Part shown: in pieces, positions 40,697 to 64,000 of the stretch
How positions within the stretch are numbered: position 1 is the stretch's first letter
Layout of the letters: the number at the start of each line of letters is the position of its first letter
Origin: Leucosporidium creatinivorum
Taxonomy: Eukaryota; Basidiomycota; Microbotryomycetes; Leucosporidiales; Leucosporidiaceae
Length of the DNA: 64,000 nt
Assembly: GCA_001600635.1 (NCBI GenBank)
Contig: BCKL01000006.1
Span: 915,875 to 979,874 of the forward strand
Reading direction: 5' to 3'
Position numbers and translations under genes: made by a program
Notes under the pieces: generated by a model
Seen by the model: the letters and a program-made list of their open reading frames with translations, nothing else
Told to the model about the DNA's origin: nothing
Database searches by the model: none

Positions 40697-41427
40697 TTAA
40701 TGCGCTCGCTCTGCGACCTTTCTGGCGAAGAAACTTGTCGAAAGCAAGAATATGTAAGAGGTACGGCTCGAGATGACGCTGTAGCGCGGCAGCCGGCGAG
40801 TAATGGGCGATTTGGCGGTGCGTGAGAGCTCGCCGACTCCCTCGGCGCTGTCACGTCGGAGGAGGATCTCGCGGGCGTTCGAGATGAGCCAAGAGCGGGT
40901 GGTGGTAAGATCCCCCTTCCAGCGGGAGAGGCCAGTCGCAGGCCAGATGTCCTGCAGAGGCCAGTGAGATCAGCTTCGGCGGAGAGGTTCATAGCTCGGC
41001 GTAAAGACTTGCACTTCGAGCAGTCTCCTGAGACACATACGGGAGGACCCAATCGTTCAAGCTACCGGATCTGGAGGACTCGTCTGCAGAGGAAAGATCA
41101 GCTGAGCCCTAGCTTGCAGCTCCATCGACTCACACTCGTTGCCGACCTCAGCCAACTTCTCGAGCTCTCCTTCGGTGAGATCCTCCTCATGCCACAGCGT
41201 TAAGCCAGTCGCACAGTACTTCTTATGCACGGGTCAGACCTGTAGTCGAGTACAGAAGCGGTCAGCGGATTTCGGAGCCGAAGGGCAAGGAGTCCTCAGC
41301 CTGAGACGGCGAACGAAGGGCCGAGCTCACCAGTTTTGCGTGTTCTGCACAGCAATAGAAGGCTTCCTTGCCCTGCCGCAAGCCTTGACTTCGGTACAGG
41401 GCAGACGGCGCACTCCCTAGCAGTCAT
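40697..41427 (-). CDS. MYND-finger-type protein, minus-strand copy 1, C-terminally shortened
   Basis: This is the minus-strand partner of a divergent MYND pair. The start MTARECAVC leads into the finger, but the reading frame that continues the finger (KEAFYCCAEHAKL, then IWPVHKKYC-like after an intron) is out of phase unless a 25-nt GT...AG stretch is removed. Downstream exons read cleanly (LTLWHEEDLTEGELEKLAEV, YESSRSGSLNDWVLP, then LSRWKGDLTTTRSWLISNAR, EILLRRDSAEGVGELSRTAK). After TAKSPIT the sequence diverges from copy 2 at 48.6 kb and ends soon after in ARKVAERAH-stop. In-phase indels relative to copy 2 suggest that both were once under coding selection. It may be a truncated relic. Function unknown; MYND fingers mediate protein contacts. 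Confidence 0.45.
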
Positions 41428-41588
41428 AAACCTTAGCAGCGAGTTTGCAGTCGAGAGACGAGCGACAAGGAAGAAGGAAGAGAGACGAAGTCGCTCCGGA
41501 CTCCTTGCCCTCTTACGCTTCACCTCGTCTCTTCAACTCGACTCGGGATGGAAGCGTTCAAGGACAACGAGTGCATCGTCTGTGGTGC
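40805..41588. repeat. Segmental duplicate, copy 1 of the divergent MYND promoter block
   Basis: This block is nearly identical to 48908-49690. It covers most of the minus-strand MYND gene, the ~120-base bidirectional promoter and the first ~13 codons of the + strand MYND gene. Differences are a few substitutions and small indels, several a multiple of three in coding parts. Confidence 0.9.
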
Positions 41589-42521
41589 AGCGACTACTAA
41601 GCGCTGCTCAGGCTGCAACAAGCTCGCCTTCTGCGGTCCAGCTCATCAGAAGCTGGTGAGCTCGACCCGCTTGCACCGCTTCGTTTGCGTGTTGTTGATT
41701 CGGACTTCTGATCTACTACAGCTTTGGGTCACGCACAAGCACCTCTGCGGCAAGGCAGAGTTCGTCTCGCCGCCGCTCATGCCTACAGAGCTCGACTGGG
41801 CGTTCGAGCACCCCGGTTAGTTCTCTCAGTTGCCACGAAACCCACGTCGACTTGCACGCTCATCGTCTCCGTAATCGCAGATGATACCTTCTCTGACCTC
41901 TTGAAGCCGATCACCGCCAACTTCGGTCTCGCCGGTCGCGAACTGCTGGTGGTGAGTTGGCTTGCCCGGCGGAGCGGCCCCAGGTCGTCGCTGACCTCAC
42001 TCGTCATGCAGTCGGACCAAGCCCTCGTCAGCAGCTGGGGCATCCGCTTTAGAGCCGTCGTGCGCGCCATCTGCTACACCACCGGCGGGACATCGCTCTA
42101 CTTCCACCCCGAATGCACCATCGCCGAACTCAGCTTTGCCGCCGTCTCCCCCACCGAACTCATGGTGCGGGCCCGATTCCCCGACGAGCTCGAGTCCCCC
42201 TGCCCGATTATCTACCAAGAGATGCTCTGCGCGGTAGTCTATGCCTTGACTCTCGCGTACCAGGCTGAGCGTCTTCAGCAAAAGCGCCGAGACGACCCGT
42301 CCATTTCGGACGAGCGGTGGATCAGACTGGTACAAGAGGAGGCCTCGGTGCTTGAGCTTGCGTTCAGTCGGATGAAAAGGGTGGAACAGATCATAGACCA
42401 CTTAGAAGAGGGGGTACTTTCCTCAGTAGAAAGGGAGTCGATCAAAGAGATCTTCATGGCCAACAGGGGAGCGGCGGAACAGCAGCTGCGGCTCACGGAA
42501 GCGGTACTTCGCCCGCGCTGA
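41548..42521 (+). CDS. MYND zinc-finger protein, plus-strand copy 1
   Basis: An N-terminal MYND finger is complete: ECIVCGAATTKRCSGCNKLA then FCGPAHQKLLWVTHKHLC after removal of an intron at 41655-41722. It is followed by a helical body (DDTFSDLLKPITANFGLAG, WGIRFRAVVRAICYTTGG, CTIAELSFAAVSPTELMVRA, YQEMLCAVVYALTLAYQAER), ending LTEAVLRPR. Three or four introns. No catalytic domain such as SET was seen. The finger presumably binds a protein partner. The paralogue at 49650 shares the start and promoter almost exactly but the bodies are very different. Confidence 0.8.
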
Positions 42522-48557: not shown

Positions 48558-49537
48558 TCACAGCCCTACTGCTCCTTCCCCCTTCAGCATCTGCTCTCGG
48601 CGGTCTGACCTCTCGCGAATGACGGCGCGGCGCCGGCAAAGGTTGAGCAGCTGGGCAGCTAGCAAGGGGTGGAGACCCGCCGAAGGGGGGATTTTTATCA
48701 CAAGTAGACATCTCTTCCCTAGCATGACCTCGTTGTCCTTCTCCGAGGGTTTGAGCGGCTTGGGGGAGAGCGGGATGACCTCGGGCTCGACGAGATAGCT
48801 GAAGATGGCGCATTGGGAGGAGAAGTTGGTGCGAGTGCTGAGGTCAAAGGGAGTGAGGTTCCGGTCGCGGTCGAAGGTGCTGACTCTGTAGAAGAGTGGG
48901 CGGCAGGTGGTGGGCGATTTGGCGGTGCGTGAGAGCTCGCCGACTTCCTCGGCGCTGTCTCGTCGGAGGAGGATCTCGCGGGCGTTCGAGATGAGCCAAG
49001 AGCGGGTAGTAAGATCCCCCTTCCAGCGGGAAAGGCTAGTCGCATGCCCAATGTCCTGCAGAGGCCAGTGAGATCAGCTTCGGCGGAGATGTTCAAAGCT
49101 CGGCAAAAAGACTTGCACTTCGAGCAGTCTCCTGAGACACATACGGGAGAACCCAATCGTTCAAGCTACCGGATCTGGAGGACTCGTCTGCAGAGGAAAG
49201 ATCAGCTGAGACTGAGCCCTAGCTTGCAGCTCCATCGACTCACACTCGTTGCCGACCTCAGCCAACTTCTCGAGCTCTCCTTCGGTGAGATCCTCCTCAT
49301 GCCACAGCGTTAAGCCAGTCGCACAGTACTTCTTATGCACGGGCCAGATCTGTAGTCGAGTACAGAAGCGGTCAGCGGAGTCCGGAGCCGAAGGGCAAGG
49401 AGTCCTCAGCCTCAGACGGCGAACGAAGGGCCGAGCTCACCAGTTTTGCGTGTTCTGCACAGCAATAGAAGGCTTCCTTGCCCTGCCGCAAGCCTTGACT
49501 TCGTTACAGGGCAGACGGCGCACTCCCTAGCAGTCAT
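48558..49537 (-). CDS. MYND-finger-type protein, minus-strand copy 2
   Basis: This is the fuller of the two minus-strand MYND genes. It shares with copy 1 the start MTARECAVC, the out-of-phase finger continuation (KEAFYCCAEHAKL) and the 25-nt GT...AG stretch between them. After that, exons join well: IWPVHKKYCATGLTLWHEED, LTEGELEKLAEVGNEYESS, RSGSLNDWVLPDIGHATSL, RWKGDLTTRSWLISNAREIL. Unlike copy 1, the frame continues into TCRPLFYRVSTFDRDRNLTP, FDLSTRTNFSSQCAIFSYLV, EPEVIPLSPKPLKPSEKDNE and on to LKGEGAVGL-stop. The second Cys pair of a normal MYND finger is missing if the 25 nt are removed. Either the finger is decayed or the gene model at its 5' end is different. Function unknown. Confidence 0.5.
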
Positions 49538-49690
49538 AATCCTTAGCAGCGAGTTTGAAGTCGAGACGAGCGAGAAGGAAGAAGGCAGAGAGACGAAGTC
49601 GCTCCTTGCCCTCTTACGCTTCACCTCGCCTGCACAGCTTTGACTCGGGATGGAAGCGTTCAAGGACAACGAGTGCATCGTCTGCGGTAC
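48908..49690. repeat. Segmental duplicate, copy 2 of the divergent MYND promoter block
   Basis: This block matches 40805-41588 in the same orientation, with a few substitutions and small indels. Similarity stops abruptly about 13 codons into the + strand gene, although both downstream genes encode MYND proteins. Confidence 0.9.
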
Positions 49691-50565
49691 AGCAACGTCG
49701 ACGCGTTGCTCGGGCTGTAGGAGAGTCGCCTTCTGCTGTGCCGGCCACCAAAAGATTGTGAGTCGAGCTTGCACCGCTCAGAGTGCGTCTTACTGAGATA
49801 GCATTCGCTACAGATGTGGCCAGTACACAAGTGCTTCTGCGGCAAAGAAGGCTACACACCTCTCCCGCTCACCAAGGAGGAGATCAACTGGGCGCTCTCT
49901 CATCCTGGTCAGCTCCTACCGTCGGTTGCGCCCGTTCGCCAGCTGACCGTCCTCGGCTGGCACAGATCCTGAGCCCGCGAGAGATGTCCCATTCCTCATT
50001 CGCCTTCTCAAGGCCCAAGATCCTTCGAAGGAGCAATTGGTGAGCCGCCCGATTTTCTCGCCAGCGCCGAGCGCCAGCTGATCCACGTCCACGCTCACAG
50101 TCGGCCTACAACTTTTGCCTCCTACCCCTTCCCATCGTTCACGCCTTCGTTCGCAACTCCTGCCATGCCACCTACTACCCTGGCTACACGCAAGGCCTTA
50201 CCCCTCCCCTCGTGCTCGCCGTCTTCGCCTGGATCTCTCACCCCGAATCGAGCTGCTACAGCAACCCTCAGACACCCAAGGACATCTCGAAACACCTTTT
50301 GCTCAGCCAAGTCTTCATTCGCATCGCTTACACGGCCGCCTTGGTCCTTCGAGCTTCTTGGCGGGCGCGAGTCGGAGGGGATGCGACGGTGCAAGAGCAG
50401 AAGGAGTGGGCTCAGACGAGTCTGAGAAAGCTCGAGAAGATGATGGATGATCTCGGGGCTGGATTGGAGCCCAATTCAGAGCCGCTGAAGACGTTCACCG
50501 GGAGCCTGAGAAGCTTCCTGGAAACGCCGAGGTGGCTCGTCGATGCTGGGTGCTGTGTAGCTTGA
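49650..50565 (+). CDS. MYND zinc-finger protein, plus-strand copy 2
   Basis: The first codons (MEAFKDNECIVCG) are the same as in the gene at 41548. The MYND finger is complete: ECIVCGTATSTRCSGCRRVA, then FCCAGHQKIMWPVHKCFC once the intron at 49759-49813 is removed. The body (GYTPLPLTKEEINWALSHPD, FLIRLLKAQDPSKEQL, FCLLPLPIVHAFVRNSCHAT, LLLSQVFIRIAYTAALVLRA, LRKLEKMMDDLGAGLEP) keeps the helical layout of copy 1 but shares little sequence. It ends VDAGCCVA. Function unknown; likely a protein-interaction module. Confidence 0.78.
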
Positions 50566-50754: not shown

Positions 50755-51561
50755 CTACACACCACCGGGCTGCTTGGCTGCCAAGGCGTACGCAGGCGGC
50801 TGCTCGACTCCTGCTTCGGCCGACGCCCCTTGCTCGGCGATGACTTCTTGAACGGCGGGGCGTGCTTGAGCGACGGGGGCTGGCCGTTGCACCCTCACGG
50901 CGCGGATAATTGTAGCATTGCTCTGCTGTCCGCCGACTCGAACCGTCGGTGCGACTGCAAGATCGGCCCGAATAGCAGCCGTCATTTGAAGCCTCGCCGC
51001 CGTCTCCTCCTTTCTCGCCCGCTCTGCTCGGGTTTTAGGATCTACACAGCACCAGAAGATGATGAGGAAAGCACCCAAGATTCATCTCACGCATATGCCC
51101 AAGATCTGCTCGCGAGTGTAGCGCGGCGCTCTGGGAAAGGAGCGATCAGCTCGGCGCCGAGCAGGAAGCGAAGAAAAGAGCTCACGAGCATCCATCGATC
51201 CCGTTAAGACCGTCTTGGGCTTGCTGAGGAGGAAGATAAACCACTTCCTTGTCATCGTCGCTGACCTGGAAGCGAATCCATTGTCCCGACTTGACGAACT
51301 TGCTGGCGTCAAAGTTCGACTGGCTCGAAGTCCGAAATGAGCCTACGGGCTCATATTCTTCGAGAAGGGTGCCGTTCCAGTCACCTACACCATCATAATA
51401 AGGCGCTACAGTGTACTCAAATGGAACTTGCCGTGCGAAAGCGAGAGGGAGCCTGTAGTGCTGACGGGCGCGATGGATATAGAAAGCCCGTTGGTGCTGT
51501 TGGTAGCTAAGGCTCGTCGGTTGAGCGGAAAGAGCATGGGTAGAAGGCCGGTGGGAGCCAT
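50755..51561 (-). pseudogene. Decayed member of the PPxY/GGV-tail membrane protein family (member 1)
   Basis: The layout equals the intact relatives: start MAPTGLLPMLFPLNRRALA, an Asn/Ser/Thr-rich lead, the ectodomain strand TTGSLSLSHG, SGQWIRFQVSDDD, GLNGIDGCS, an intron, a membrane segment (around ILGAFLIIFWCC) and a basic tail ending EQPPAYALAAKQPGGV-stop. Two defects are seen. About 14 residues around the first ectodomain Cys are missing, with a frame change between LSHG and FEYTVAP. There is also an in-frame stop just before the membrane segment. The tail motif is still perfect, so decay looks recent. A missed intron could explain part of this. Confidence 0.65.
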
Positions 51562-51847
51562 TGCTGAGGCGGCTTGCGAGCGAGGGACGATCGCCGAGGT
51601 GGCTTGGGCTCGGTTTGTGAGATTGTGCAGGCGCTATGCGAGGTTGTCGGTGCTTCAATACAAGCTGAGAGGGTGCAGTCGACGAGCGCAAAGTGAGAAG
51701 AGGCCACAAAGCGACGCAGAGAGAAGAGCGAGGCGTCGCGAAGCTTAGCTGTCCCTTTCGGCAGCCCTCTGGCTGCCTCGCTGAGTATGACGTCGAGTGT
51801 GGATGATCGAGAGATGAAGTATCGGACTGATTGCACTGATACAGAGT

Positions 51848-52656
51848 CTACACTCCTCCTGCAGCCTTCCCGCTCAGCTGCGCCTCGTAGCTCGGCGGGG
51901 TCTCCTCCTCAATTCTCGCTCCACCTGTCCCCGCCTGTCCGGCTCCACCAACGCGAATCGTTTCTCGAGTGACCGCACGCTCATTCGTTTGCACTACACG
52001 CGGCGCTTGAGGCGTCTGACGAGTGACGACCAGCTCGGCGGGGACTTGGGCGTTGATTCGGCGCCTACGCCGCTCCCCAAGGTTGGCCACAATGCTAAGG
52101 ATTCCCGCGAGCCCAAGAAATCCCCCAAAGAAGCAGAGGAAGATGTAGCCGAGGGACCAGTCGTTGCTCTGCGGGATGCTGTGGTATGAAGATCAAATCA
52201 GCGCGAGTACGAGCGCACTGGAGGGGAGGAAGGTCACCTGCACCCATCTACCCCATCCGTCCCATTCTTGACCTCGCGCACCGAATCAAAGCTGATCGAC
52301 CCTCCTCCGTCCTGCACTCGGAGCCGAACCCAGCTCTCCTCCGGCAAGCTCGCTGTAACATTCCACCCGGCCGTTCCCGCTTCGGGATATACGCCGAGAG
52401 AGCCCTCGAGAGGAGGATTATAGAACGAGCCGTTATAGTGCGATGTGGGCGGGTAGGCTTGCCACGAGAGTTGGAAAGGAGGAGCAGAGCCGCCGTAGGA
52501 GACGTTGGCGGGTGTACAGGTGATGTCGCCGTTGGAGATGGAGAAGAAGGGTTGTTTGAGGGCGCTGCCAATGAAGGGGGTCGAGTAGTTGAGCGGAGCG
52601 CGCGTGTTGAGAGATGCGTAGTTCGGCGAGAGGGCGAGAGGTGGAGCGGGAGCCAC
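51848..52656 (-). CDS. PPxY/GGV-tail single-pass membrane protein (member 2), start codon GTG
   Basis: The ectodomain is complete: FFSISNGDITCTPANVSYGG, APPFQLSWQAYPP, two N-glycosylation sites in YNGSFYN and WNVTASLPEE, SWVRLRVQDGGG, ending NGTDGVDGC. Removing the intron joins it to SNDWSLGYIFLCFFGGFLGL, a membrane helix, then RRRRRI, and a tail ending ETPPSYEAQLSGKAAGGV-stop. Where members 1 and 6-type relatives have ATG-GCT-CCx (Met-Ala-Pro), this gene has GTG-GCT-CCC at 52656 and no in-frame ATG upstream before a stop. Either the start is lost, initiation is elsewhere through an unseen exon, or the base is a sequencing error. Function unknown; probably a surface protein. Confidence 0.6.
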
Positions 52657-53080
52657 GGCGAGAGGTGCAGGAGAGGCGAGTAGCTCGAGGGTGGGAGTTG
52701 ATGAAAGCGATGCAGTACGCTGAGAGGTTGTGGTTGGAGGAAGAGAGGCGAGGAAGTTTTGCGTCAGAGCGCGGGAGCGCTCTCGGAGCTCTCCTCATTT
52801 GACGCCAGCGAGCACCTCCTAGCTTTAGATGGCGCCGACGCTGAGTCGCTTCGATGGTAGATTTCGATGAGGACGAGCTCGCGCGATGGGAACGAGGAGG
52901 GCCGAGAGCCGATGCGAGCCGGTGTGCGGGCATGCGCATCTGCGAGAGTCGAGCCGAGGTCAGCGAGGCGCAGAAGGGAAGAGGGCGAAGCTACTAGCGC
53001 ACTCGCCGATTACATGAAGAAGTCCAGCTCCTTCTACAACCATTCGAATCGAAGCTCTACTCGACCTCGGCGCGGACCCC

Positions 53081-54098
53081 CTACGTCCCTCCGGCTTGCG
53101 CATGCCACTGCTTCATGAATGCCTCGGCCATCTTCTCCCGCTCGATATCCTTCTTGGCACTCTCCTCGTCGCTGAGCGAGCACCACGAGCACTGGCATTC
53201 AAACCTCCACTGCGAAGAGCGAAAGCAAAAGGGTCAGCTCGGCGCTCACGGCACGGCGTCGGAATCCAGGCAAAGAACTCACCTTGACCAGCAGCTCTTC
53301 TCTCCGTTCCCTCCGCTTCTGAAACGGCACAATGTACGTCACGCAAAGCTCCTCGCCTGCCTTGACCGCCCTCGTCGTCCGAACGCCGAGCTCGAATCGC
53401 TGCCAATCCCACTCCGGTCGAGCGTTGGCGTCGCATGCATGGTTCAGACGACTGTAAACTGGGAAGACGCCGGTATAGGTGACCGGGTCGGCTGCGTCTC
53501 CAGCGCCTTCAAAAGAGATTACAGGTGCTCCGTTCGTTTCGATTCGACCGAAGATGGTCTCCGAGCCAGCGAAGCAATTGCTGAGGTCGAGGAATTGGCG
53601 TTGATGGTCGAATTCGAGGTGAGAGAGGGCGTGGGTGAAGATGTCGTTGGCTTCCTTGCGTGAAGGTCCTCGGTCGGAGGGATCAAAGACGAGAAGCGGT
53701 CGGTCGACGAGGACGAGCGAGTTGGGCGGTAGATCCCGCTTGGCGAATAGTGCGAGACCCTTCTTGGCCGTGGAGCGGATCTCGTACGCTGGTGAAACGT
53801 TGGCTGAGCCGAGGAGGGGTGGAGGTGGCCGAGAGGCGAGGAGAGCGCGAGAGGCGGCGGTGACGAGGAGTCCCGTGCTGGCGGTTGGTGAGGCTGGAGT
53901 AGGTGCGGGCGAAGCAGGGAGGAAGCTCCAGTGCAATGTCGACGGCGAGTCTCGAGGTGAGCTGGCCCAGCCTGGCGGTGCCGCAGCGAGAGGAGGGATG
54001 GGCGCTGCTCTTGAGGTTGCTGGCTGTTGGGCTGCAGCTGGGGTGGGCTTGGGCTGAGCAGGCGCAGAGCTCTTGCCGCTCAAGAATCCTCGTTTCAT
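53081..54098 (-). CDS. SET-domain protein
   Basis: This is a putative protein lysine methyltransferase. The start MKRGFLSGKSSAPAQPKP opens a Pro/Ala/Ser-rich lead of ~90 residues. The SET domain runs from YEIRSTAKKGLALFAKRDL through LVLVDRPLLVF, a diverged insert, then VFPVYSRLNHACDANARPEW, where R-x-N-H-x-C-x-x-N is the AdoMet/pseudoknot signature. GEELCVTYIVPF is the second half of the pseudoknot. After one intron (removed before WRFECQC), the post-SET zinc motif FECQCSWCS is present, and the protein ends HAQAGGT. No MYND finger is inserted, so it is not a classical SMYD protein. The substrate is unknown. A TTG further upstream is not needed as start. Confidence 0.85.
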
Positions 54099-55062
54099 GT
54101 CGGTCGAGACGGGCGAGTGATGTGTAGGAGGGGAACTTTCTACGCGTCCCAAGCTCTTCCTCTAACGTCTCGCTGCTCGGACCTCGACTCGCCTACACCT
54201 TCTACAGAGGCTCTCTGATACATTGGGCAGTATCTACTTAGCTCCTGCTGCTCTCTCTACCGGTCAATTGGCCCGCTCGGGCCTTCAGCAGCTCCGCCGT
54301 CGAAGGAGCTCAGTCACAGCTCGCTCTACCTCTCCAAATATAATTGCAGCGGATGGCGCCTGTGAGTAGGCAGTTATCTTCTCTGGGCTTAGCTCAGGGC
54401 ACACGCCCCCATCTACTCCGTCGCCGAAATCAGCTCGGCGAAGGGGGTTGTTCACCGCTTCTGAGGAGCTAGCAGGAGCTCGGCTCACTGCCAGCTCCTA
54501 TTGAGCCACACATCTTTGCCCTCAACATATGTGGGCACCGCCAGATACCCCTCAACCCGCCCCCTCGACAGCTCGGCGACCCTTTCGCCGAACCTTTCCT
54601 CGCCGAATAGCAGCTGAAACACGGTGAGATCGACGGGGAACCTGCCAGTATGTACTGCAGCGGAGCGCTCAAGATCACTTGGCCTACTCGCCCCTCCTGG
54701 ACCCAATCACGGCCGAAGGAAACGCTGCGACGGGTCAAGCCTCGAGCGCCGAGCGCCGAATACATCTCAGCTCGGTCTCTGAAAGCTTTGATGGGCTCTA
54801 CGTGGTCTTGTGTAAGTCTTCTAACAGCTCTTGACTGTCGACGGTGGCCGACCAGCGCTTGCAGGACGCAGCTCGAGTCGAGACTCTCAGAGCAAGATCG
54901 GTCGAAAGCGCTTCCGCTGACGCTTTCCTCTCTCCTCCTCACTTCTTCGACAGCCAGATCAGGTTCCTGCTCGTACTTCCGGCGAGCTTCACTCGAAGCC
55001 AGAGCCCTCAACAACTAGCAGCGCTCCCACCGCTCTTCGTCTCAGCTGCTCACCTCAGCAGC
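54099..55062. promoter_or_regulatory. Divergent region, SET gene / surface protein member 3
   Basis: About 960 bases lie between the two starts. A minus-strand ORF at 54485-54706 contains VDLTVFQLLFGEERFGERVA and GYLAVPTYVEGKDVW, which reads like a protein fragment rather than random sequence, but it has no recognisable partner exons. The part before 55063 holds a likely 5' leader with a C/T-rich tract. Nothing else was recognised. Confidence 0.35.
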
Positions 55063-55792
55063 ATGGCGCCCGCATTGCTCGCCCTCCCCGTCAAGATGGC
55101 CGACATCCTTACTGCAGCAACCTCCAACCTTGCTCCACCCTATCTATTGATCAAGCCATTAGACTACAGAGTGTCCGATCCAGTTGACCACAGCTTCCTC
55201 TGGACTTCGCACGACAACGTCGATTGTCCATCGCTCAAGCTTGTGTACGGCGGTCTTCACCCTCCTTTCACTATCCGTATCAGCAATCCTTACGCCACCT
55301 CTCAAGCTGTCAACGCCTCGGTGTCCTTCTCGGCGGAGCTCGGCCCTTTCGAGAACAGCGGGGACGTCGATTGGAAGGTCATCTCGCCTCCAGATCTATG
55401 GCTTCAGGCTACTATTATCGATGCGGTGGGATCTGAAACTGCTAAACCCCCGATTTGGGTCCGGGAGGGCACCTTGAGCAAGCCCTTTGCTAGTAAGCTT
55501 GGGGCTCGCCGAGGTCCCGACCAAGCTTTTGCTAACCCTTGCTCTTCGTAGGAACGCGTCGCTGATAACGGGGAACTGGATCGGGGAAATTCTCATCTAC
55601 TTTCCCTTCGTTGGACTTGCCTTGATTGGCATCATCTTGGCGGGTGAATGGGTCCAGCAGCGGATGCGGGAGTTGGCGCTGCAAGGACGGTTCGGAGCGC
55701 GCAAGCAGATGGAAGAGCAGGGGAGGAGAGCAGAGGAGGAGGCTGAAGAGGTACGGTGGAGAGAGCGGGAAGGAAGCCGTGAGCCCGCGTGA
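55063..55792 (+). CDS. Single-pass membrane protein, subfamily without PPxY (member 3)
   Basis: The start MAPALLALPVKMADILTAAT recalls the Met-Ala-Pro start of members 1 and 6. The ectodomain has SHDNVDCPSLKLVYGGLHPP, FTIRISNPYATS, AELGPFENSGDVDWKVISPP, DLWLQATIID and PPIWVREGTLSKPF. One intron (55491-55551) is removed before RNASLITGNW. A membrane helix (IYFPFVGLALIGIILAGEWV) and a ~45-residue charged, coiled-coil-prone tail follow (KQMEEQGRRAEEEAEEVRWR), ending GSREPA. The Cys-x-V-x-Y-GG-x-x-PPF pattern and the W-x(V) strand match the PPxY members, so a common origin is likely. Function unknown. Confidence 0.7.
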
Positions 55793-56331
55793 CGAGATGT
55801 GCAAGCGTAGCCTTGGTCGAGTCGGCGCAATCGAAGCTCGGCTTTCTCGGCGCTCATCTCGACGAGGGTAGACTTATCTGTGGCAGTTCCGATGCTGTCG
55901 GAGATAACACAAAGAGGTCACCAAGATCGGATACTAAGGAAGCCAAATGCTCGAAGCAGCTATGTCTGGCGCTTCCTCGAAGCTCAGCGACCCTTCGCCG
56001 AGATGCTGCCTCGCGAATTCGATGGCTGGAACACTACACAGTGCGACCGCGATGTAAAAGAGCGGTTTCTTTCGCTCTCCGAAAAGCTCGGGCGCGCTCC
56101 TGCTCCCGCCTGCGCCCGTCCACGACTGAGGCCCGAGGGGTTGAGCTCTGAGAGCGGCGCGTCTGAAGCTTGCCTTGCGTCCGCCTCTCTGCTCTCTTCC
56201 ACCTTTTGATCGCACAGTACAGTACCGCACATCTATCGCAACGCGCTCGTGTGGCTCAGTCTCGCTCATATTACAGCCCTTGAGGATCAAGAAGCTCGGC
56301 TCGATCCTGCCCTTCAGTTCAGCCCAGCATC
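55793..56331. other. Intergenic region between paralogous surface genes
   Basis: The spacer between members 3 and 4, on the same strand, would contain the promoter of member 4. ORFs here show no family similarity. Confidence 0.4.
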
Positions 56332-56991
56332 ATGGCGTGGCAATGGCTCGCCTCGCTCATGCGAGCCACCGACATCCAACAACCCTCAGCAGCCGACCTT
56401 GCTCCCCCTTACCTTTTCCTCAAATCGGAGCGTCGCTTCCTCTACACTTCGCATGACAATGTTGCCTGTCGTCCTTTGCGGCTCAGCTACGGCGGTCTTC
56501 ACCCGCCGTTCACTATTCATTTGCGTAAGCCATATGCTACAGCTCTGCCTGCCAACGACTCGACGGCGACTTACGCTGCCCTCGGACCTTTCGAGGAGGA
56601 CGGCGAGCTCGAGTGGACCGTCGTTTCCCCTCCGAGCCTATGGCTGCAGGCTACTATTGTAGACGGGAAAGGGCTAGAAAGCTCGATACCGTCCTTGTGG
56701 GTCGTGAAAGGGACCACTCGTTTCGTCTCGGACGGAATCTGCTGGTGAGCCCCTACGCCGAGCTGCCGCCCGACCGAGCTTTCGCTGACTCTCGACCTCG
56801 CTAGGGATTCATCGCTCATCACGGGCGACTGGGTCGCGGAGGGTTTCCTCTACTTCTTAATCGCAATGCTGGCCCTCCTCCTTGGTGCCATTGGGATGTG
56901 CTGCTGGGAGGACGCGAGCGATCGACGAACGCTCCGAGCTAAGCGGCTGGAGAGGGAACGGGAGGGAAGGAAGGCAAAGGAGGCCGAGTAG
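56332..56991 (+). CDS. Single-pass membrane protein, subfamily without PPxY (member 4)
   Basis: This is the closest paralogue of the gene 1.3 kb upstream. The start MAWQWLASLMRATDIQQPSA is followed by ADLAPPYLFLKSERRFLYTS, SHDNVACRPLRLSYGGLHPP, FTIHLRKPYATALPAN, EWTVVSPPSLWLQATIVDG and SLWVVKGTTRF. Removing the intron 56746-56803 gives CWDSSLITGDW, followed by a membrane helix (FLIAMLALLLGAIGMCCWED) and a basic tail ending REGRKAKEAE. Length ~200 residues. Tandem duplication with member 3 is evident from shared SHDNV, YGGLHPPFTI and SLITG-x-W. The cytosolic tail is short and lacks PPxY. Function unknown. Confidence 0.7.
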
Positions 56992-57188
56992 TGTGGGAGA
57001 TGCGGTATGCGCGAGCGTGAGCATGGAGCAGTAGTAGTCGGCGTAATCGAATTCTCATCACCGAGCTCCTCTCGGCGCTCGTCTCCTCGAGAGATATATC
57101 GTCCATGGCGATACAATTGCCATCCGCAAGAACAAAAGAGAGAAGTTACCAATACTACACGAGATCTACACCGCTCGACCCTGCACCG

Positions 57189-60100
57189 TCACCCCGTCCC
57201 TCGAATCCTCCTCCCCGTCCGTTCCCTCTCCCTCTCCCTCCACATCCTCCAACAAACGACCGTCGACAACGCCGCCGAAACGCCTCCAATCCTAAAGATC
57301 ATTCCCAATGCATCCCAATCCTTCCCTCCCTCCTCCTCGACCGCAGCTCGGAAAGCGAGCCTCGCGAATTCGCCTAAGCGATCGTCGACGAAGGTCGTGT
57401 TTGGCGGTGTGAGGGGGACGGTAGAGGAGGGATGACCGCCTGAGGAGATTACCGAGTGGTGAGGGGCGAAGAGGGCGAAGATGAGGGAGGAGAGGGCGGT
57501 GACGAGGAATTGGGGGAGGACGAGGTAGATGTTGTGACAGCTGTAGGAGTCAAGGAGAGGGGGAGGGTTAGCTGAGCTCGGCGCAGTAGGAAGAGAGAGA
57601 GAGACGACAACGAACCCGAGAATCACCCCCGCCTGATCGCCCGCCCCATCTCCCTCCCCTCCTCCATCATCCATCTCCCCCTCCCCCTCCCACTCATCCT
57701 CATCACTTCCCCCCTCCCCACCTCCAAACGTAATCCTCGGCGGCTCAGCATACCCCCCACCATACACAGCCCTCGCACTCCCCGCGCTGCCCCTCCTACT
57801 CTCCCTCCCCTCGTACCCACCCTTCTCGCTCCCCTCCTCGCTACTCCCCCCGTCCGACCGCTCGAACGTATCGTCCGAATGCCGGATCTGCAGGACTGTA
57901 GGCGTCGTCCCTCCTCCTTGCTGTCCTTGCGCTAGAATCGTCGAAGTCGAAGCGAAAGAGTACGGATCATTATCGCCGAGACTGAGGTTCGAGGCATAGG
58001 GATCGTGGTTCGGTGGGTACTCGTAAGGGTGGGAGGACTCCCTCGATGCTGAGTTGTATTGTCGAGGTGACGGCGAAGGAGAGGGAGACCGGCGCTTCCT
58101 GTCGTCCAGCTCATCGGAGGAACGAGGGAAGGTCGACCGCTCGGGAGTGCCCCCGAGCGAGGTGGTGTCAAAGTACGCGCTCGTAGCGCTCGGCGGGGTA
58201 CCCACCATACTCTCCTCCCCTCCTCCACCATCTTCCCTCCTACCCTCCGGCCTCGGATCCGGGAAGCCCCAACTCCCTCCCTCCTCGCCCCCTACCCCTC
58301 CCCCTCGCCGAGCTTTCGGCGTGTCCATCAACGGCGTCTTGCCGTTCGACATGGAGGGCTCGTAGTCCGACGCTTCCTCCATGATGGGAGAGAGGGCTGA
58401 ATGAGAGTTATCGGCCCAGTGGGGGGAGTGGGAGTGGAGGGCGTGCGAGGAGGGCGAGGAGACGCCGATGCGGAGGATGAGGTCGCCGAGCTGCGAGCTC
58501 AAACCAGGTCAGCGAGCGCGCGAAGGAACAGGCGAAGTGAAACGTACGATGGCGAAAGGTGCCCAGTTGGTCACAGCCCACGAGAAGCCAGCAGCAGCGA
58601 GGATGAACGACGCGCCAAACACCGAGGTAGCGAACCAAGTCCCGATGAGTAGGGTAGCGAAGAGGGCGTTCGAGATGGTCCACAGCAGCGGTAAGCTGAG
58701 CCAAGCGACCGGCATAGTCGGTAGCATGGACTTGATCCTCTCCGTCAGAGTCTCGCCTTGGCCGAATCCCGTCGAGGAGCGAACGTAGGGCGAGTTGGGC
58801 TTTGAGCTGCTAGGCGAAGAGCTGGAGCCGGCGATGAAAGGGGGCAGGAGGATGGAAGTAGCGAGAGAGACGATAGCGTGCCATAGCATCGCTCGAGTGC
58901 CGGCTCGGGTCGCTGCGTCGCGGATGTCGAGAGGGGCAGAGGCGAGGTCGGAAAAGGTGGAGGTCGTTTGGACGTAGATTTCGGCGACCCAGGTGGTGCC
59001 GAAGAAGAGGACGGGGAACCAGCCGATCCAGGAGGAAAACTGTCGCGATCCTAGCGGTCAGCAAGAGAAGCGAAGCGCGTCAAACGAACGCCGAGTCGAG
59101 AAACGAACCTGGACGTTGAGGACCTGCTGGATCGGTCGAGGGAGGGTGCGCAGGGTAGTCCAGATGTCGAACATGGCTTTCATAGCTGGGCTCGAATCGT
59201 CGTCGGGTGTTCGGGTGTCTTCTCTCGAGATGAGGACTCGTTCCCGAACGCAGACTACCGTGATGGCGTGGGCTCCGCAGAGGAAGAAGGAGGTGAAGAA
59301 GGTGAGGACCTGTGAGGCTCGAAGGTTAGTTATAAGCTCGGCGCTCGAGAGAGATTGAGCTCACCTTGAGCTGCTCTCCGCCGAGGAAACCGCCGGTGAG
59401 GTAGACGAGGTCGAGTCCGCCGACCCAGTAACCGAGGACGGCTGGTGAATTCACAGTCAGCTGAGCCTCGCGGAGCACGATGTAGAACATCAGACTCACC
59501 TCCAATGCCATTCATCCTCGAAGCCCAGGCATTCGCAGCGGGTTGGAGGTGCGGCGCAATCACGTCGACGATGAGCGAGCGGTCCATGGCTTGCACGACG
59601 TTGATGCTGAAGTCGCTGTGGATCGAGAAGAGGGTTAGCCTAGTGTAAAGTTCAGCGAGAGCTCGAACGTACATCACGTAGACCGAGAGGATAGCGAGAG
59701 CGATAGTAAGTCGTCCGTGCTGCGAAGCGGTGCGCCGAATGAGCTCTGGTCAGCGAAGGCCCAGAGCCGAGCAAGACAGGAACACTCACAATAGCACCTC
59801 CGCTCTCCGCTACGAGCCCAGCGACCTCCTTTGACCATCCGAGCAAGAGGACTGCGAAGCTCGAGACGACACACCCTCCAATGATGAAGGGACGTCTGCG
59901 GCCGAGGGACAACCTACAGCCGTCGGAGAGGACTCCCACGACAGGCTGTACGATCAAGCCGCTGAGCGGTCCTATTGGCGTGAAGAACCGAGGGTTAGCG
60001 AACAACGGGACGGGCTCTCACGAGGCGGGGCGCCAGCTGCCAGCTAGCCTGCTGCCAGCTAGCCTGCTGCCAGCTACTCACCTGCAAGGAAGACGATGGC

Positions 60101-60341
60101 CATATGAGATTTTGATACGCCGAGGGAGAGCAAGTAAGGGGAAGCTTGGGCCATCTCACAACTCCACACGAGCTGTAGACCGAGCATTGAGATGGTGAGA
60201 GCTAAGAATCGGCAGAACTGCGGCTAACGGAGGTAAATACACATTCAACCGAATCCTAGATATGCTGAAAGGTAGTTACCTGGGGAGCGTGAGGCGCTTG
60301 AGGCAAGAGGACGGCTCGACCGACCCAGCGAGAGCGGCCAT
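57189..60341 (-). CDS. Sucrose/alpha-glucoside:proton symporter (SUT/GPH-type MFS)
   Basis: The transporter resembles fission-yeast Sut1 and plant SUTs and would import maltose or sucrose with protons. The first exons give MAALAGSVEPSSCLKRLTLP, then LTISMLGLQLVWSCEMAQAS, and the signature GPLSGLIVQPVVGVLSDGCR then RRRPFIIGGCVVSSFAVLLL. Middle exons include ITSTMSERSMACTT antisense to real exons, and the plausible helices of the second half. A large cytosolic segment (~280 residues, Ser/Gly/Glu-rich, from SHSPHWADNSHSALSPIMEE) precedes the last two helices (SCHNIYLVLPQFLVTALSSL; IFRIGGVSAALSTVVCWRMW), ending RRIRGTG. About nine introns. One near 60033-60077 contains repeats of CCAGCTAGCCTGCTG. 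The long loop is bigger than in characterised SUTs. Confidence 0.85.
60033..60077. repeat. Intronic tandem repeat in the SUT gene
   Basis: Tandem units of about 15 bases (CTGCCAGCTAGCCTG and close variants) lie inside a short intron near the 5' end of the sucrose symporter gene, next to the donor site. Confidence 0.7.
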
Positions 60342-60539
60342 GAGGGGAAGAGGGGAAAGCCGAGAGTCCCGTCATTGAGGAAGGGAGCTAAAGGGCTACA
60401 GAGCCCTCCACCTAATAGCGCAGAGTCGAAGTTGGGAGACGACTGGAGACGAGCCCAGACGAGCAGACGGTAAGAGCCCAAGCGTCGTCGCGTTCAACTC
60501 AACTCTCTCGCTCTTCCCTTACGCTTCGCATTTCTCAGC

Positions 60540-61663
60540 ATGGGTATGTAGTCACTTTATGCACTCATTCGAGCACTAGCTAACCCTGCTCTACTTCTAC
60601 AGATCAACAGGTACGCTCCTGCAGCTTCTCAGCCTCTACCTTCAACCTGGAACTGACCTCTCCCTCTGCAGAACCGAGTCGGCAGCAAGTTTGGAGGAGG
60701 AGGAGTAGCAGGAGCATCAGAGCAGGCCATCGACCGAAGGGAACGGCTAAGGAAACTCGCCCTAGAGACTATCGACCTGGCAAAGGTGAGCTTCCAAGCC
60801 CGCCGCTCTCATCTCAGCGCCCGGCTAACGCTCTCTGCACCTCAACCAGGACCCCTACATCCTCCGCAACCATCTCGGCGGTCTTGAATGTCGACTGTGC
60901 TTGACCCTCCACACCAACGAGGGTTCCTACCTCGCCCACACGCAGGGAAAGAAGCATCAAACCAACCTCGCCCGTCGAGCCGCTCGTGATGCGCATGACC
61001 CGAGTCAGTATGCCCAGCAATTGGCGGCGCAGCAGGCGGCGCAGAAGGTTCAGGTGCAGACGAAGAGCTTCATCAAGATTGGTAGCCCAGGGTACCAGGT
61101 GCGTTTCGCTGACTACCGCTTTCGGGGTGGTGAAGGGGAGAGCTGATGCTGAATGGTGATGCTACAGGTCACCAAGGTTCGCGATCCTATTACTGGACAG
61201 CTCGGCCTGCTGTTCCAGGTGCACTACCCCGAGATCAAGGAGGGCGTCAAGCCCCGGCATCGGTTCATGTCGAGCTTTGAGCAGCACGTCGAGGCCCCCG
61301 ATCGGACATGGCAGTACTTGTTGGTGAGTGGAGTGTGCTCTTGATGCTGACAGGTCGTAGCTAGGTGGTGGAGTAGATCCAGAACTGACTTCACCGACCG
61401 AACGCCTCGCAACAGATCGCCGCCGAGCCATATCAGACCATCTCGTTCAAGATCCAGTCTCGGGAAATCGACAGTACGTTCGCTCATCCCTCGTCCACTT
61501 CTTTGCCCAGCCCTCTTGCCCTCTACCGCGCTCGCTCGTGGCTCGCCGAACCCGCGCTGACCTCGCCTCCCTCCAAACAGGCGCCGAAGGCATGTCGTGG
61601 GAGCACTGGGATACCGACACCAAAACCCTCTCCTTCCAATTCCTCTTCGCTCAGCAGCAGTGA
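60540..61663 (+). CDS. PRP11: Splicing factor 3A subunit 2 (SF3A2/Prp11)
   Basis: SF3A2 belongs to the SF3a complex of the U2 snRNP and helps branch-site recognition. Coding begins with a 4-nt exon (60540-60543, ATGG), then an 8-nt exon (60603-60610, ATCAACAG), then the third exon, giving MDQQNRVGSKFGGGGVAGAS. Family blocks follow: DRRERLRKLALETIDLAKDP, the C2H2 matrin-type finger LECRLCLTLHTNEGSYLAHT with GKKHQTNLARRAA, FIKIGSPGYQVTKVRDPITG, LFQVHYPEIKEGVKPRHRFM, WQYLLIAAEPYQTISFKIQS, and EGMSWEHWDTDTK, ending FLFAQQ. The Pro-rich tail of the human protein is absent, as in most fungi. Very high similarity in all blocks. Confidence 0.95.
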
Positions 61664-61905
61664 GCTTGCTCGGTCGATTCGGTTCGGTCGGCGCGGGAAG
61701 GAGGGAGGGAGCAGAAGGAGGAGGATTGGAGCAGCAGGAGGAGTGGAGAGCCATGCGTAGACTGGCTAGCTATAGTGCCAACGATAGTGTGTACTTGTTT
61801 TCTCATCTCTTCGTCGTCCCTCATCTCGTTTCGTCTCTCGGCTCGACTCGCCGATTCGGCGCAAGATCCTCCATTCGACAGCTCGGCCAACTTGTCAAGC
61901 CTCAG

Positions 61906-62784
61906 CTAAACTCCACCAGGCCTCTTATGCTCCAAAGCAGCGGCATACCTCGGTGGATGATCCTCCTCGACCTCTGCCTCCCGCTGCTCCACCCTCGCCT
62001 CGGCGATGTCCTCCTCGCGCTCACCCATTCTTCCCCAGGGATTGAAGTCCTCCGGCTCATCTCGCACGATCAGGGGCGGAGGAACCACCGGCATTGGTAC
62101 GGGCGCAGGCTGCCCCCCTTGCCCCGCCGGCGTCTTCTGCTCGACCGCCTCGAGCCTCCGCTTGCGCTTGCGATCACTCCAAGTGCAGAAAGCCCAGATG
62201 AGCAAAGCCGCGGCCAAGCAGCTTGCTATATAGATGCCGATCTTTTGGCCGTTGGTGAAGCGCGGTCCTCTACGAGCGAGAGGTGAGGATAAGTTCAGCT
62301 CCAAGCTCATCGCCGAAGGGGGGTAGCAGGGTCGTTTGCGACCTGCGTTGTCGAGCGAGATCACTCACGTGCACCCGTCTACTCCTCGCTTCCCGCTTTT
62401 CACCTGCCAGGCTCTATCATACGCCGCCTGCCCCAGGGTATCATCCGTCACCATAAACCTGACCCACCTCCCCGATCCCACAGCATCCAGGTCAAAGTCC
62501 ACCGTGTTCTCTCGGAGATAGTAGCCTTGCGGTTGCTCGGCGGGAGGTAGACTATCGTCACAGCCGTCGCCCTGTCTGTAGGACGAGGGAGCGATGCTAT
62601 AGGAGACGATGAGCGGCAGGTTTTGGCCGTGCAGCGAGACGGGGATGAGGGGGCAGGACACGCTGCCGGCGTTGATAGAGATGTGCCCTGAGGTCGAGGG
62701 TCGGACAGCTATAGATAGTGAGGAGGTGCTGTTGGACACTGGCGGCGAGAAGTCGCGTTTGTGAGCGAGGGCTGAAGGAGCCAT
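61906..62784 (-). CDS. PPxY/GGV-tail single-pass membrane protein (member 5)
   Basis: This copy is intact. The start MAPSALAHKRDFSPPVSNST opens a Ser/Asn-rich lead. The ectodomain reads GHISINAGSVSCPLIPVSLH, LPLIVSYSIAPSSYRQG, YYLRENTVDFDLDAVGSGRW, VRFMVTDDTLGQAAYDRAWQ, ending KSGKRGVDGCT. One intron is removed between C-AC and A-GGA. A membrane helix follows (IGIYIASCLAAALLIWAFCT), then the basic SDRKRKRRLE and a tail with PAPVPMPVVPPPLIV, an acidic stretch (EDIAEARVEQREAEVEEDH), and PPRYAAALEHKRPGGV-stop. No cleavable signal peptide is obvious, so the single helix would orient the N-terminus outside. Function unknown; PPxY suggests WW-domain (Rsp5-type ligase) binding. Confidence 0.75.
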
Positions 62785-63182
62785 TTCGGATCGGAGGGGG
62801 CTCGGCGAAGATGAGAGGGTGGTGAGTTGACGGCGAGGCTGCTGAGCTGTTGGGCAGTGCTATGATATAGTAAAGACGAGCGGAAGGAGTCGAAGGGTGA
62901 AGACGTCGAGGCAGAAGCCGGACAAGCAGCGAACACAACGTCAAGTTCGATCGACGCCGGGTTTTGCCTCTTGGAGTCTTTCGAAGTGCTGGCGTTCAGC
63001 AGGGATGTCACTCGCTACAGGAGGCTCTCTAGCAGTCTGAAGTGGTCGTTGAACCTCTGAGCAGGCTATTCTCGATGAGCTGCCCCTGAAATGAAGCTCG
63101 GCCCAAGCTTCGGCGCTGGGAAAAGGATAGGTCCAGTACAGTTGTGAGGGGGATTATCCGCAACTAGAGTCTTCACCAATCT
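62785..63182. other. Intergenic region between members 5 and 6
   Basis: Promoter side of member 5 and 3' side of member 6, both on the minus strand. No gene was recognised. Confidence 0.4.
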
Positions 63183-64000
63183 CTATACACCTCCTGGTAC
63201 CTTTGGATCGATACCATAAGCTGGTGGTTGCTCCTCCTCCTCTCTCCTCGGCGCCTCGACGATATCGGGCTCCTCCCTCCGAGTCGGCGGCTCCTCGACG
63301 ACTACAGGCGGCTGCTCCATTTCCACCACTGGCGCAGGGAGAGGAGGAACAAACACCGGTAGTTGATAGGCGTGATGAACCACCGGGGGAGGGGCTGCGC
63401 CCTTGGCAAGCTTTCCCCTCCTTACTCTCGGCGCCCGCTGCTTGGTGCAGCACTGGCAGCACCAGCCGAGGAAACCGCAGAAGCACCAACCGAGGATGAC
63501 AGCGGTGAAGGGGAAGACGAAGACGCTGAGCCAGATCAGAGCGGTCTTCACGGCTGCAGAGATGCGAGGCTTGCTGCTCGGCGAAGGGATCAGCTCGGCG
63601 ATGTGAGGAGAGCGACAAGGGAGCTCACGTGCAGCCGTCCACGCCTTTCGATCCAACCTTGAGCTGATAGGGTACAGAGTAGGCTTCTGCCTTGCTGCTG
63701 TCCTGCACTACGAACCTGACCCATCCGCCTTTCAACGAGCTGAGAGCAAACTCGGCGGTGCCGTTCCGATCAAAGGAGCCTTGCGGATCGTCCTTGGACG
63801 GTGTGGTACCATTCCACGGCTCGGAAGGGTCGTACGCCCGCGTGTAGGTGTATTCGACGACGAGGGGGAGGAGATCGCCAGTGTAGGAGACGGTGCTGTT
63901 CGGGCAGGAGAGGGAGCCGGAGGATATGGAGAGGTAGCCAGTGCTGGAGGGGGTGAGCAGGGTGATGCTGAGGTTGGTGGTGAAGTTGGTGACGGCGAGT
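63183..64000 (-). CDS. PPxY/GGV-tail single-pass membrane protein (member 6), 5' end outside the window
   Basis: The gene is cut by the window edge. The visible ectodomain reads LAVTNFTTNLSITLLTPSST, GYLSISSGSLSCPNSTVSYT, DLLPLVVEYTYTRAYDPSEP, GSFDRNGTAEFALSSLKGGW, VRFVVQDSSKAEAYSVPYQL, ending VGSKGVDGCT. It has several N-glycosylation sites. One intron leads to the membrane helix (ALIWLSVFVFPFTAVILGWC) and a juxtamembrane Cys cluster (CFCGFLGWCCQCC). A Pro-rich tail with repeated PPVVVEEPP-type words follows, ending EEQPPAYGIDPKVPGGV-stop. Best matches within the window are members 5, 2 and 1. Function unknown. Confidence 0.75.

Follow-up and report, generated by a model that had tools for sequence, protein, structure and literature searches.

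Paralogous single-pass membrane proteins with a candidate Rsp5-docking tail at one locus of Leucosporidium creatinivorum

The family considered here occupies the last 13 kb of a 64,000-nucleotide stretch of DNA from the basidiomycete Leucosporidium creatinivorum (assembly GCA_001600635.1, contig BCKL01000006.1, positions 915,875 to 979,874, forward strand; hereafter the window), where six homologous copies, A to F, make up an old, partly decaying set of paralogous single-pass membrane proteins. The closest described systems are membrane proteins that meet the ubiquitin ligase Rsp5 or its relatives through a short proline-tyrosine (PY) motif. The PPxY form of this motif is a ligand of group I WW domains, the Rsp5 ones among them; in Sna3 a C-terminal cytosolic PPAY binds Rsp5, and the protein is ubiquitylated on one lysine, K125, as the cited part of the source describes (PMC2171029). 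Known membrane adaptors include Bsd2, Tre1/2, Ear1, Ssh4 and possibly Rcr1/2, in the section cited (PMC2810449), and Comm, Rcr1/2 and PRRG4, all short transmembrane proteins with PY motifs, alter the surface levels of other proteins, according to excerpts of a further paper (PMC5578492). Of the HECT genes of fungi RSP5 is the most conserved, and Puccinia graminis has one copy of it, in the passage cited (PMC5913265).

Four of the six copies (A, B, E and F) share with Sna3, as the cited part of its description has it, a C-terminal PPAY or PPxY, cytosolic in Sna3 and predicted to be so here, and a tail lysine (PMC2171029), a likeness at the level of the motif and not of aligned sequences. Like Comm, PRRG and Rcr1/Rcr2, these four are short transmembrane proteins with a PY motif on the (here predicted) cytosolic side, a likeness drawn from the excerpted description (PMC5578492), and Ear1 and Ssh4, in the section cited (PMC2810449), are fungal membrane adaptors of Rsp5 for cargo, a role proposed for these four copies too. 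Differences are equally plain. Ear1 and Ssh4 carry SPRY domains, in the same section, whereas a Pfam scan of nine family pieces found none; and the four copies have one PPxY, a fixed K-x-[P/A]-G-G-V end and a predicted beta-sandwich, whereas the ectodomains of Comm, PRRG and Rcr1/Rcr2 are of other kinds. That of PRRG is Gla. Sna3, whose K125 is located after PPAY, is without a large folded ectodomain, unlike the family.

The C-terminal tail and its proposed role

In the tails of A, B, E and F, PPxY is followed after 4 or 6 residues by the K-x-[P/A]-G-G-V end (C-terminal ends: A, PPAYALAAKQPGGV; B, PPSYEAQLSGKAAGGV; E, PPRYAAALEHKRPGGV; F, PPAYGIDPKVPGGV). This tail, which the first-pass annotation of the same DNA had missed, is the strongest functional clue to the family and, as a sequence motif, points to trafficking that may be under ubiquitin control. 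PPxY begins 14 or 16 residues from the end in these four of the six tails, and both elements are rare by chance when each tail is shuffled 20,000 times (p 0.001-0.016 per tail for PPxY in the last 22 residues, and p 0.00025-0.00135 for a GGV end). A GGV end is found in 4 of the 287 window frames of at least 100 amino acids, all four being A, B, E and F, and the tail end is kept although the exon-2 proteins of E and F are only 32% identical. All four copies have a feature expected of PY-motif membrane adaptors or cargo of Rsp5, PPxY on the predicted cytosolic side of a membrane protein.

Our tentative reading, held with somewhat less than even confidence and placed ahead of an unlikely adhesion role, is that the A/B/E/F branch consists of membrane cargo or adaptors coupled to Rsp5-driven trafficking. 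In the scheme that we infer, the helix itself would probably act as the signal for the endoplasmic reticulum, because no clear cleavable signal peptide is visible, and would place the Ig-like beta-sandwich, which a bond from early to late Cys may close, outside and the tail in the cytosol. Through PPxY the tail would dock WW domains of Rsp5, the Nedd4-type ubiquitin ligase of fungi, and the lysine near this motif may be the ubiquitin acceptor. The protein would then enter endocytosis and vacuolar sorting alone, or would deliver to them a partner bound by its ectodomain or its helix, a role primarily of cargo or adaptor rather than of adhesin.

Relationship, topology and ectodomain of the copies

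By sequence comparison the six copies are one real paralogous family without a Pfam match, and the first-pass annotation had placed all six correctly. Leave-one-out profiles recognised every held-out ectodomain of B to F (5 of 5) at 68-95 bits, the best scored shuffle reaching 12.9 (406-473 of 500 shuffles per copy received a score). A profile of B, E and F, run among 1755 window fragments, matched two pieces of A in different frames (E-values 1.2e-13 and 0.0027), as well as D (1.2e-7) and C (1.7e-6); its bit scores were 26.6 for C and 29.0 for D, with shuffles at or below 6.6. A C/D profile scored B at 27.4 bits and F at 13.3 (shuffles at or below 7.6) and did not find E (-0.9 bits), and an E/F profile raised neither C (7.2 vs 7.3 for shuffles) nor D (4.5 vs 4.7) above shuffles. 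Since some directions fail, B bridges the branches and C and D are joined mainly via B; judged by these profiles, the link between branches is weaker but real. The ectodomains of B to F, for which an alignment had been proposed as a check, align with eight invariant columns (A2, C44, G53, P57, Y69, G87, W107 and D114 in the numbering of E), and the intron position and phase common to five copies lend independent support to homology. No seventh copy was found with a five-ectodomain profile against six-frame fragments of the window, the next match after the six having an E-value of 0.98.

Beyond the window, the Pfam scan of nine pieces gave no match above cut-off (DUF5131, E-value 0.096, and LapA, 0.3, were disregarded), and a PDB sequence search nothing better than an E-value of 1.3. 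Pattern matches in IMG/VR (1 with D and 12 with F) and in GTDB (19 with the C/D alignment) were none of them confirmed, as expected of a viral and a prokaryote collection. The alignment of all five ectodomains contained no segment of sufficient conservation to serve as a pattern for such a search. No description of the family was recognised in the literature searched, which comprised open-licence papers in partial listings.

The first-pass annotation had placed one intron just before the membrane helix. Five copies (A, B, D, E and F) do have a phase-2 intron of 55-99 nucleotides there, at the same place, with its donor two bases past the late Cys codon. In C a donor occupies the corresponding place, but in-frame joining is lost. 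Exon 2 starts just outside the predicted helix and reads, after the split codon, APRYT in A, GPRFT in E and KPRIS in F, the acceptor in F having been chosen as the site that yields a PR-x-[TS]-like segment as in A and E. The single helix and the cytosolic tail called at first pass agree with prediction in all six copies: each contains a single hydrophobic stretch (mean 2.18-2.47 over 19 residues, the stretch of A including a stop), and the 15 residues past it hold 3-6 Lys/Arg vs 0-2 before it. From this excess, and so from charge only, the N-terminus is predicted to lie outside and the tail inside. Hydropathy judged by eye, with no predictor, gave no clear signal peptide at the N-termini of A to E (best 11-residue mean near the start 0.55-1.51).

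The sequence features first ascribed to the N-terminus and the ectodomain hold for some copies and not for others. In the alignment, read by eye, the V-x-Y-x-G block is present in B and F (2 of 5), C and D having L for V and E having L for Y, and the W-(V/L)-x-(F/A)-x-x-x-D block is present in four of five, B having L. A Met-Ala-Pro start is found in A, C and E, but D begins MAW, B reads VAP and the start of F lies outside the window. An N-terminus rich in Ser and Thr describes E (33% before the first Cys) and F (45%, incomplete) but not B (20%), C (13%) or D (13%). Five N-glycosylation sequons each are present in B (52240-52656) and F (63631-63999), above shuffles (p 0.0045 and 0.0005).

AlphaFold2 models of the ectodomains of D (9 strands, mean predicted local distance difference test score, pLDDT, 65.4; predicted template modelling score, pTM, 0.60) and E (7 strands, mean pLDDT 56.3, pTM 0.49) are both all beta; they were built from the same five sequences, are therefore not independent, and were not superposed. 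Foldseek against the PDB returned nothing at an E-value of 0.001 or below among the best 50 of 877 matches for the E model and the best 50 of 1680 for the D model (matches up to E-value 10). Among the matches listed were the IL-7 receptor for the E model (5.4e-2) and, for the D model, a Deinococcus S-layer protein and complement C5 (4.2e-3), and after them PKD and FN3 modules, with a Foldseek probability of up to 1.00 for D. These, which we take to be sandwich domains by recognition, are interspersed with other proteins. The shared Cys-bounded ectodomain is thus probably an Ig-like beta-sandwich, with modest confidence: it is like Ig-like, FN3 and PKD domains in its all-beta model and similar size, and unlike them in having no significant sequence match to them in Pfam or the PDB. 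The Ig-like fold suggested at first pass accordingly keeps the backing of two all-beta models, but not that of strong Foldseek matches. Uncharacterised basidiomycete membrane proteins presumably include some with a similarly Cys-framed C...(W/Y)xGG-P-(Y/F)...C ectodomain and short PY-like tails.

Intact and broken copies and their surroundings

Table 1. Window positions of the six copies and of features within them
Feature	Positions	Strand	Description
Copy A, probable pseudogene	50755..51561	-	exon 1 51561-51186, exon 2 51130-50755
A tail	50758..50799	-	PPAY-x4-K-QPGGV, C-terminus
A stop	51082..51084	-	in-frame TGA within membrane helix (exon 2)
A gap site	51419..51429	-	11 nt vs 60 nt in both E and F between same anchors; shortfall of 49 nt removes early Cys and shifts frame
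Copy B	51848..52656	-	exon 1 52656-52238, exon 2 52178-51848; no part of ectodomain, helix or tail missing; GTG at 52654-52656
B tail	51851..51898	-	PPSY-x6-K-AAGGV, C-terminus
Copy C	55063..55792	+	exon 1 55063-55492, exon 2 55552-55792; ectodomain and helix in frames that do not join, late Cys out of frame
Copy D	56332..56991	+	exon 1 56332-56744, exon 2 56805-56991; 199 aa, looks intact; short charged tail without PPxY
Copy E	61906..62784	-	exon 1 62784-62369, exon 2 62269-61906; looks intact
E tail	61909..61956	-	PPRY-x6-K-RPGGV, C-terminus
Copy F	63183..64000	-	exon 1 (beyond 64000)-63629, exon 2 63573-63183; 5' end outside window, intact as far as window reaches
F tail	63186..63227	-	PPAY-x4-K-VPGGV, C-terminus

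The first-pass count of six genes does not survive inspection of the reading frames (Table 1). Copy A combines a 49-nucleotide shortfall, for which the anchors were picked by eye and a MAFFT DNA alignment distributes the gaps differently, with a stop in its helix, and the N-terminal part of its ectodomain is in one frame and the remainder in another. Copy C has 25 nucleotides ahead of the donor vs 35 in D. Its frame fails to continue into the helix, and the junction itself would read TA|G in the D-matching frame. Single-intron models with a GTNNG donor and a YAG acceptor number 11 of 104 in C: two keep the helix but lose both ectodomain motifs checked, splicing out most of the ectodomain, nine keep the motifs but lose the helix, and none keeps both, whereas in D both of the models that pass (2 of 55) retain everything. 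C as a working gene was rejected, since no consensus-site single-intron model retains ectodomain and helix.

Copy B has no Met anywhere in its whole frame, and the ATGGC of A, C and E is replaced in it by GTGGC; in fungi, translation starts poorly at GTG. A start in an upstream exon was rejected, as none of 49 one-intron models (introns of 35-300 nucleotides) has both GTNNG and YAG; introns above 300 nucleotides and two-intron models fall outside the ranges tried. On sequence grounds, then, A and C are probably dead, B is doubtful as a working gene, and D and E look complete, as does F as far as the window shows.

Described at first as an array, the six copies do share 13 kb, but they form three adjacent pairs (A/B, C/D and E/F) with unrelated genes in between. 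A SET-domain gene lies between B and C (53202-54098; domain scan, E-value 4.1e-10). Between D and E are a transporter-like gene, for which the scan of three pieces gave MFS-type matches in one, BT1 alone being barely above cut-off (22.5 vs 22), and a zinc-finger gene with a zf-met match, presumably SF3a2-like.

Elsewhere in the window, a 0.9-kb segment is duplicated at 40804-41693 and 48911-49791 with 91% identity (98% over 300 nucleotides), which suggests a recent duplication or gene conversion near the copies, the nearer unit being about 1 kb from A. The repeat extends into the start of two similar genes, both beginning MEAFKDNECIVCG, and a MYND-finger match was found for the second, the one tested. 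The word CTCGGCG/CGCCGAG is over-represented and dispersed in window positions 1-64000 (146 on two strands vs a mean of 27 and a largest value of 40 in 30 order-1 simulations), AGCTCGGCG occurs 34 times vs 2.0 expected, and the 12-base palindrome CTCGGCGCCGAG occurs five times, once within the intron of copy A.

Weight of the alternatives and implications

Several observations tell against coupling of the A/B/E/F branch to Rsp5. PPxY also arises by chance: the window frames of at least 100 amino acids, with 44,098 residues, contain it 9 times, the family four included. The tail does not characterise the family as a whole, since the clear relatives C and D lack PPxY and have shorter, charged tails that are quite unlike those of the other copies. 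Evidence for the tail is drawn from paralogues in a single window, including a pseudogene; the two structure models are of low to middling confidence; and C, D and E have a single sequon each (E region 62371-62784), not above chance. As to the described systems, the chitin effect of Rcr1 is independent of Rsp5 and midline crossing by Comm is independent of Nedd4, in the excerpts cited (PMC5578492). Sna3 minus its last 24 residues, PY kept, is still sorted normally, according to the part cited (PMC2171029), and PY therefore mattered more than the tail end in Sna3.

An unlikely alternative, and the one proposed at first pass, is a surface recognition or adhesion family, in which the ectodomain would attach to a ligand or to a second cell, and PPxY would have no part beyond turnover of the protein itself. 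The beta-sandwich models, the sequons of B and F, and ectodomains that diverge (18-51% identity) around a conserved framework would suit it. Against it, Pfam gives no known binding domain, the ectodomain is small and without a long stalk, the recognition role was derived from layout alone, and no result speaks for recognition or adhesion in particular. Nor does divergence bear the mark of positive selection, the sense in which the family had been called fast-evolving. Nonsynonymous divergence (dN) relative to synonymous divergence (dS) is about 0.33 for the ectodomains of C and D (51% identical, dN 0.40, dS 1.21) and about 0.50 for those of E and F (42% identical, dN 0.58, dS 1.17); B/E and B/F are 31-32% identical (paired dN/dS values 0.82/1.10 and 0.75/1.15) and B/D 27% (dN 0.88, dS 2.99). 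All five pairs for which it was calculated have a ratio below 1 (0.29-0.75), these being rough estimates with synonymous sites near saturation, and positive selection on the ectodomain was rejected on that ground. Given such saturation, the copies look like old duplications under net constraint and not like a recent burst.

Less likely still is that the family is a decaying remnant of little present function, its duplicates drifting to pseudogenes in a duplication-prone region. The broken A and C, B without ATG and the 0.9-kb duplication near A are what decay would leave, but D and E look intact, F does so as far as seen, dN/dS is below 1, and the C-terminal motif is retained in four copies whose tails otherwise diverge. 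It is quite improbable that errors in the sequence or its assembly account for the lesions of A, B and C, or that B has an unseen upstream exon, and that all six are working genes: single-base errors could create TGA or GTG, the analysis rests on one assembled sequence, and one-intron start models for B do exist, with longer introns and two-intron models beyond those tried, but A has two independent lesions, one of 49 nucleotides, C has a frame difference plus the stop at its junction, and no one-intron model of B has both consensus sites. Stress sensors of the Wsc/Mid2 type, with tails signalling to Rho1, would share the single helix, the predicted cytosolic tail and the Ser/Thr-rich N-terminus of E and F, but are likewise quite improbable, given that the nine pieces have no Pfam match to these families, that hydropathy gives no clear signal peptide, that B, C and D are not Ser/Thr-rich and that the ectodomain is probably a folded domain instead of a rod-like stalk.

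The lesions are a warning against counting all six copies as genes in copy-number studies. For the preferred reading, membrane cargo or adaptors coupled to Rsp5, the tail motif gives a precise prediction, in which one short motif is changed, for a family otherwise short of clues. To our knowledge, few membrane receptors with a folded ectodomain have been well described in fungi. There is a small chance that the proteins are surface receptors of Ig-like fold that recruit Rsp5 via the PPxY-K-x-P-G-G-V end, an outside ligand or partner selecting membrane proteins for removal; they would then be a fungal counterpart of Comm and PRRG with a sensing domain of its own, evolving by duplication and loss. 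A beta-sandwich joined to a ubiquitin-ligase docking tail would, if true, connect the cell surface with the turnover of membrane proteins in a way that can be tested.

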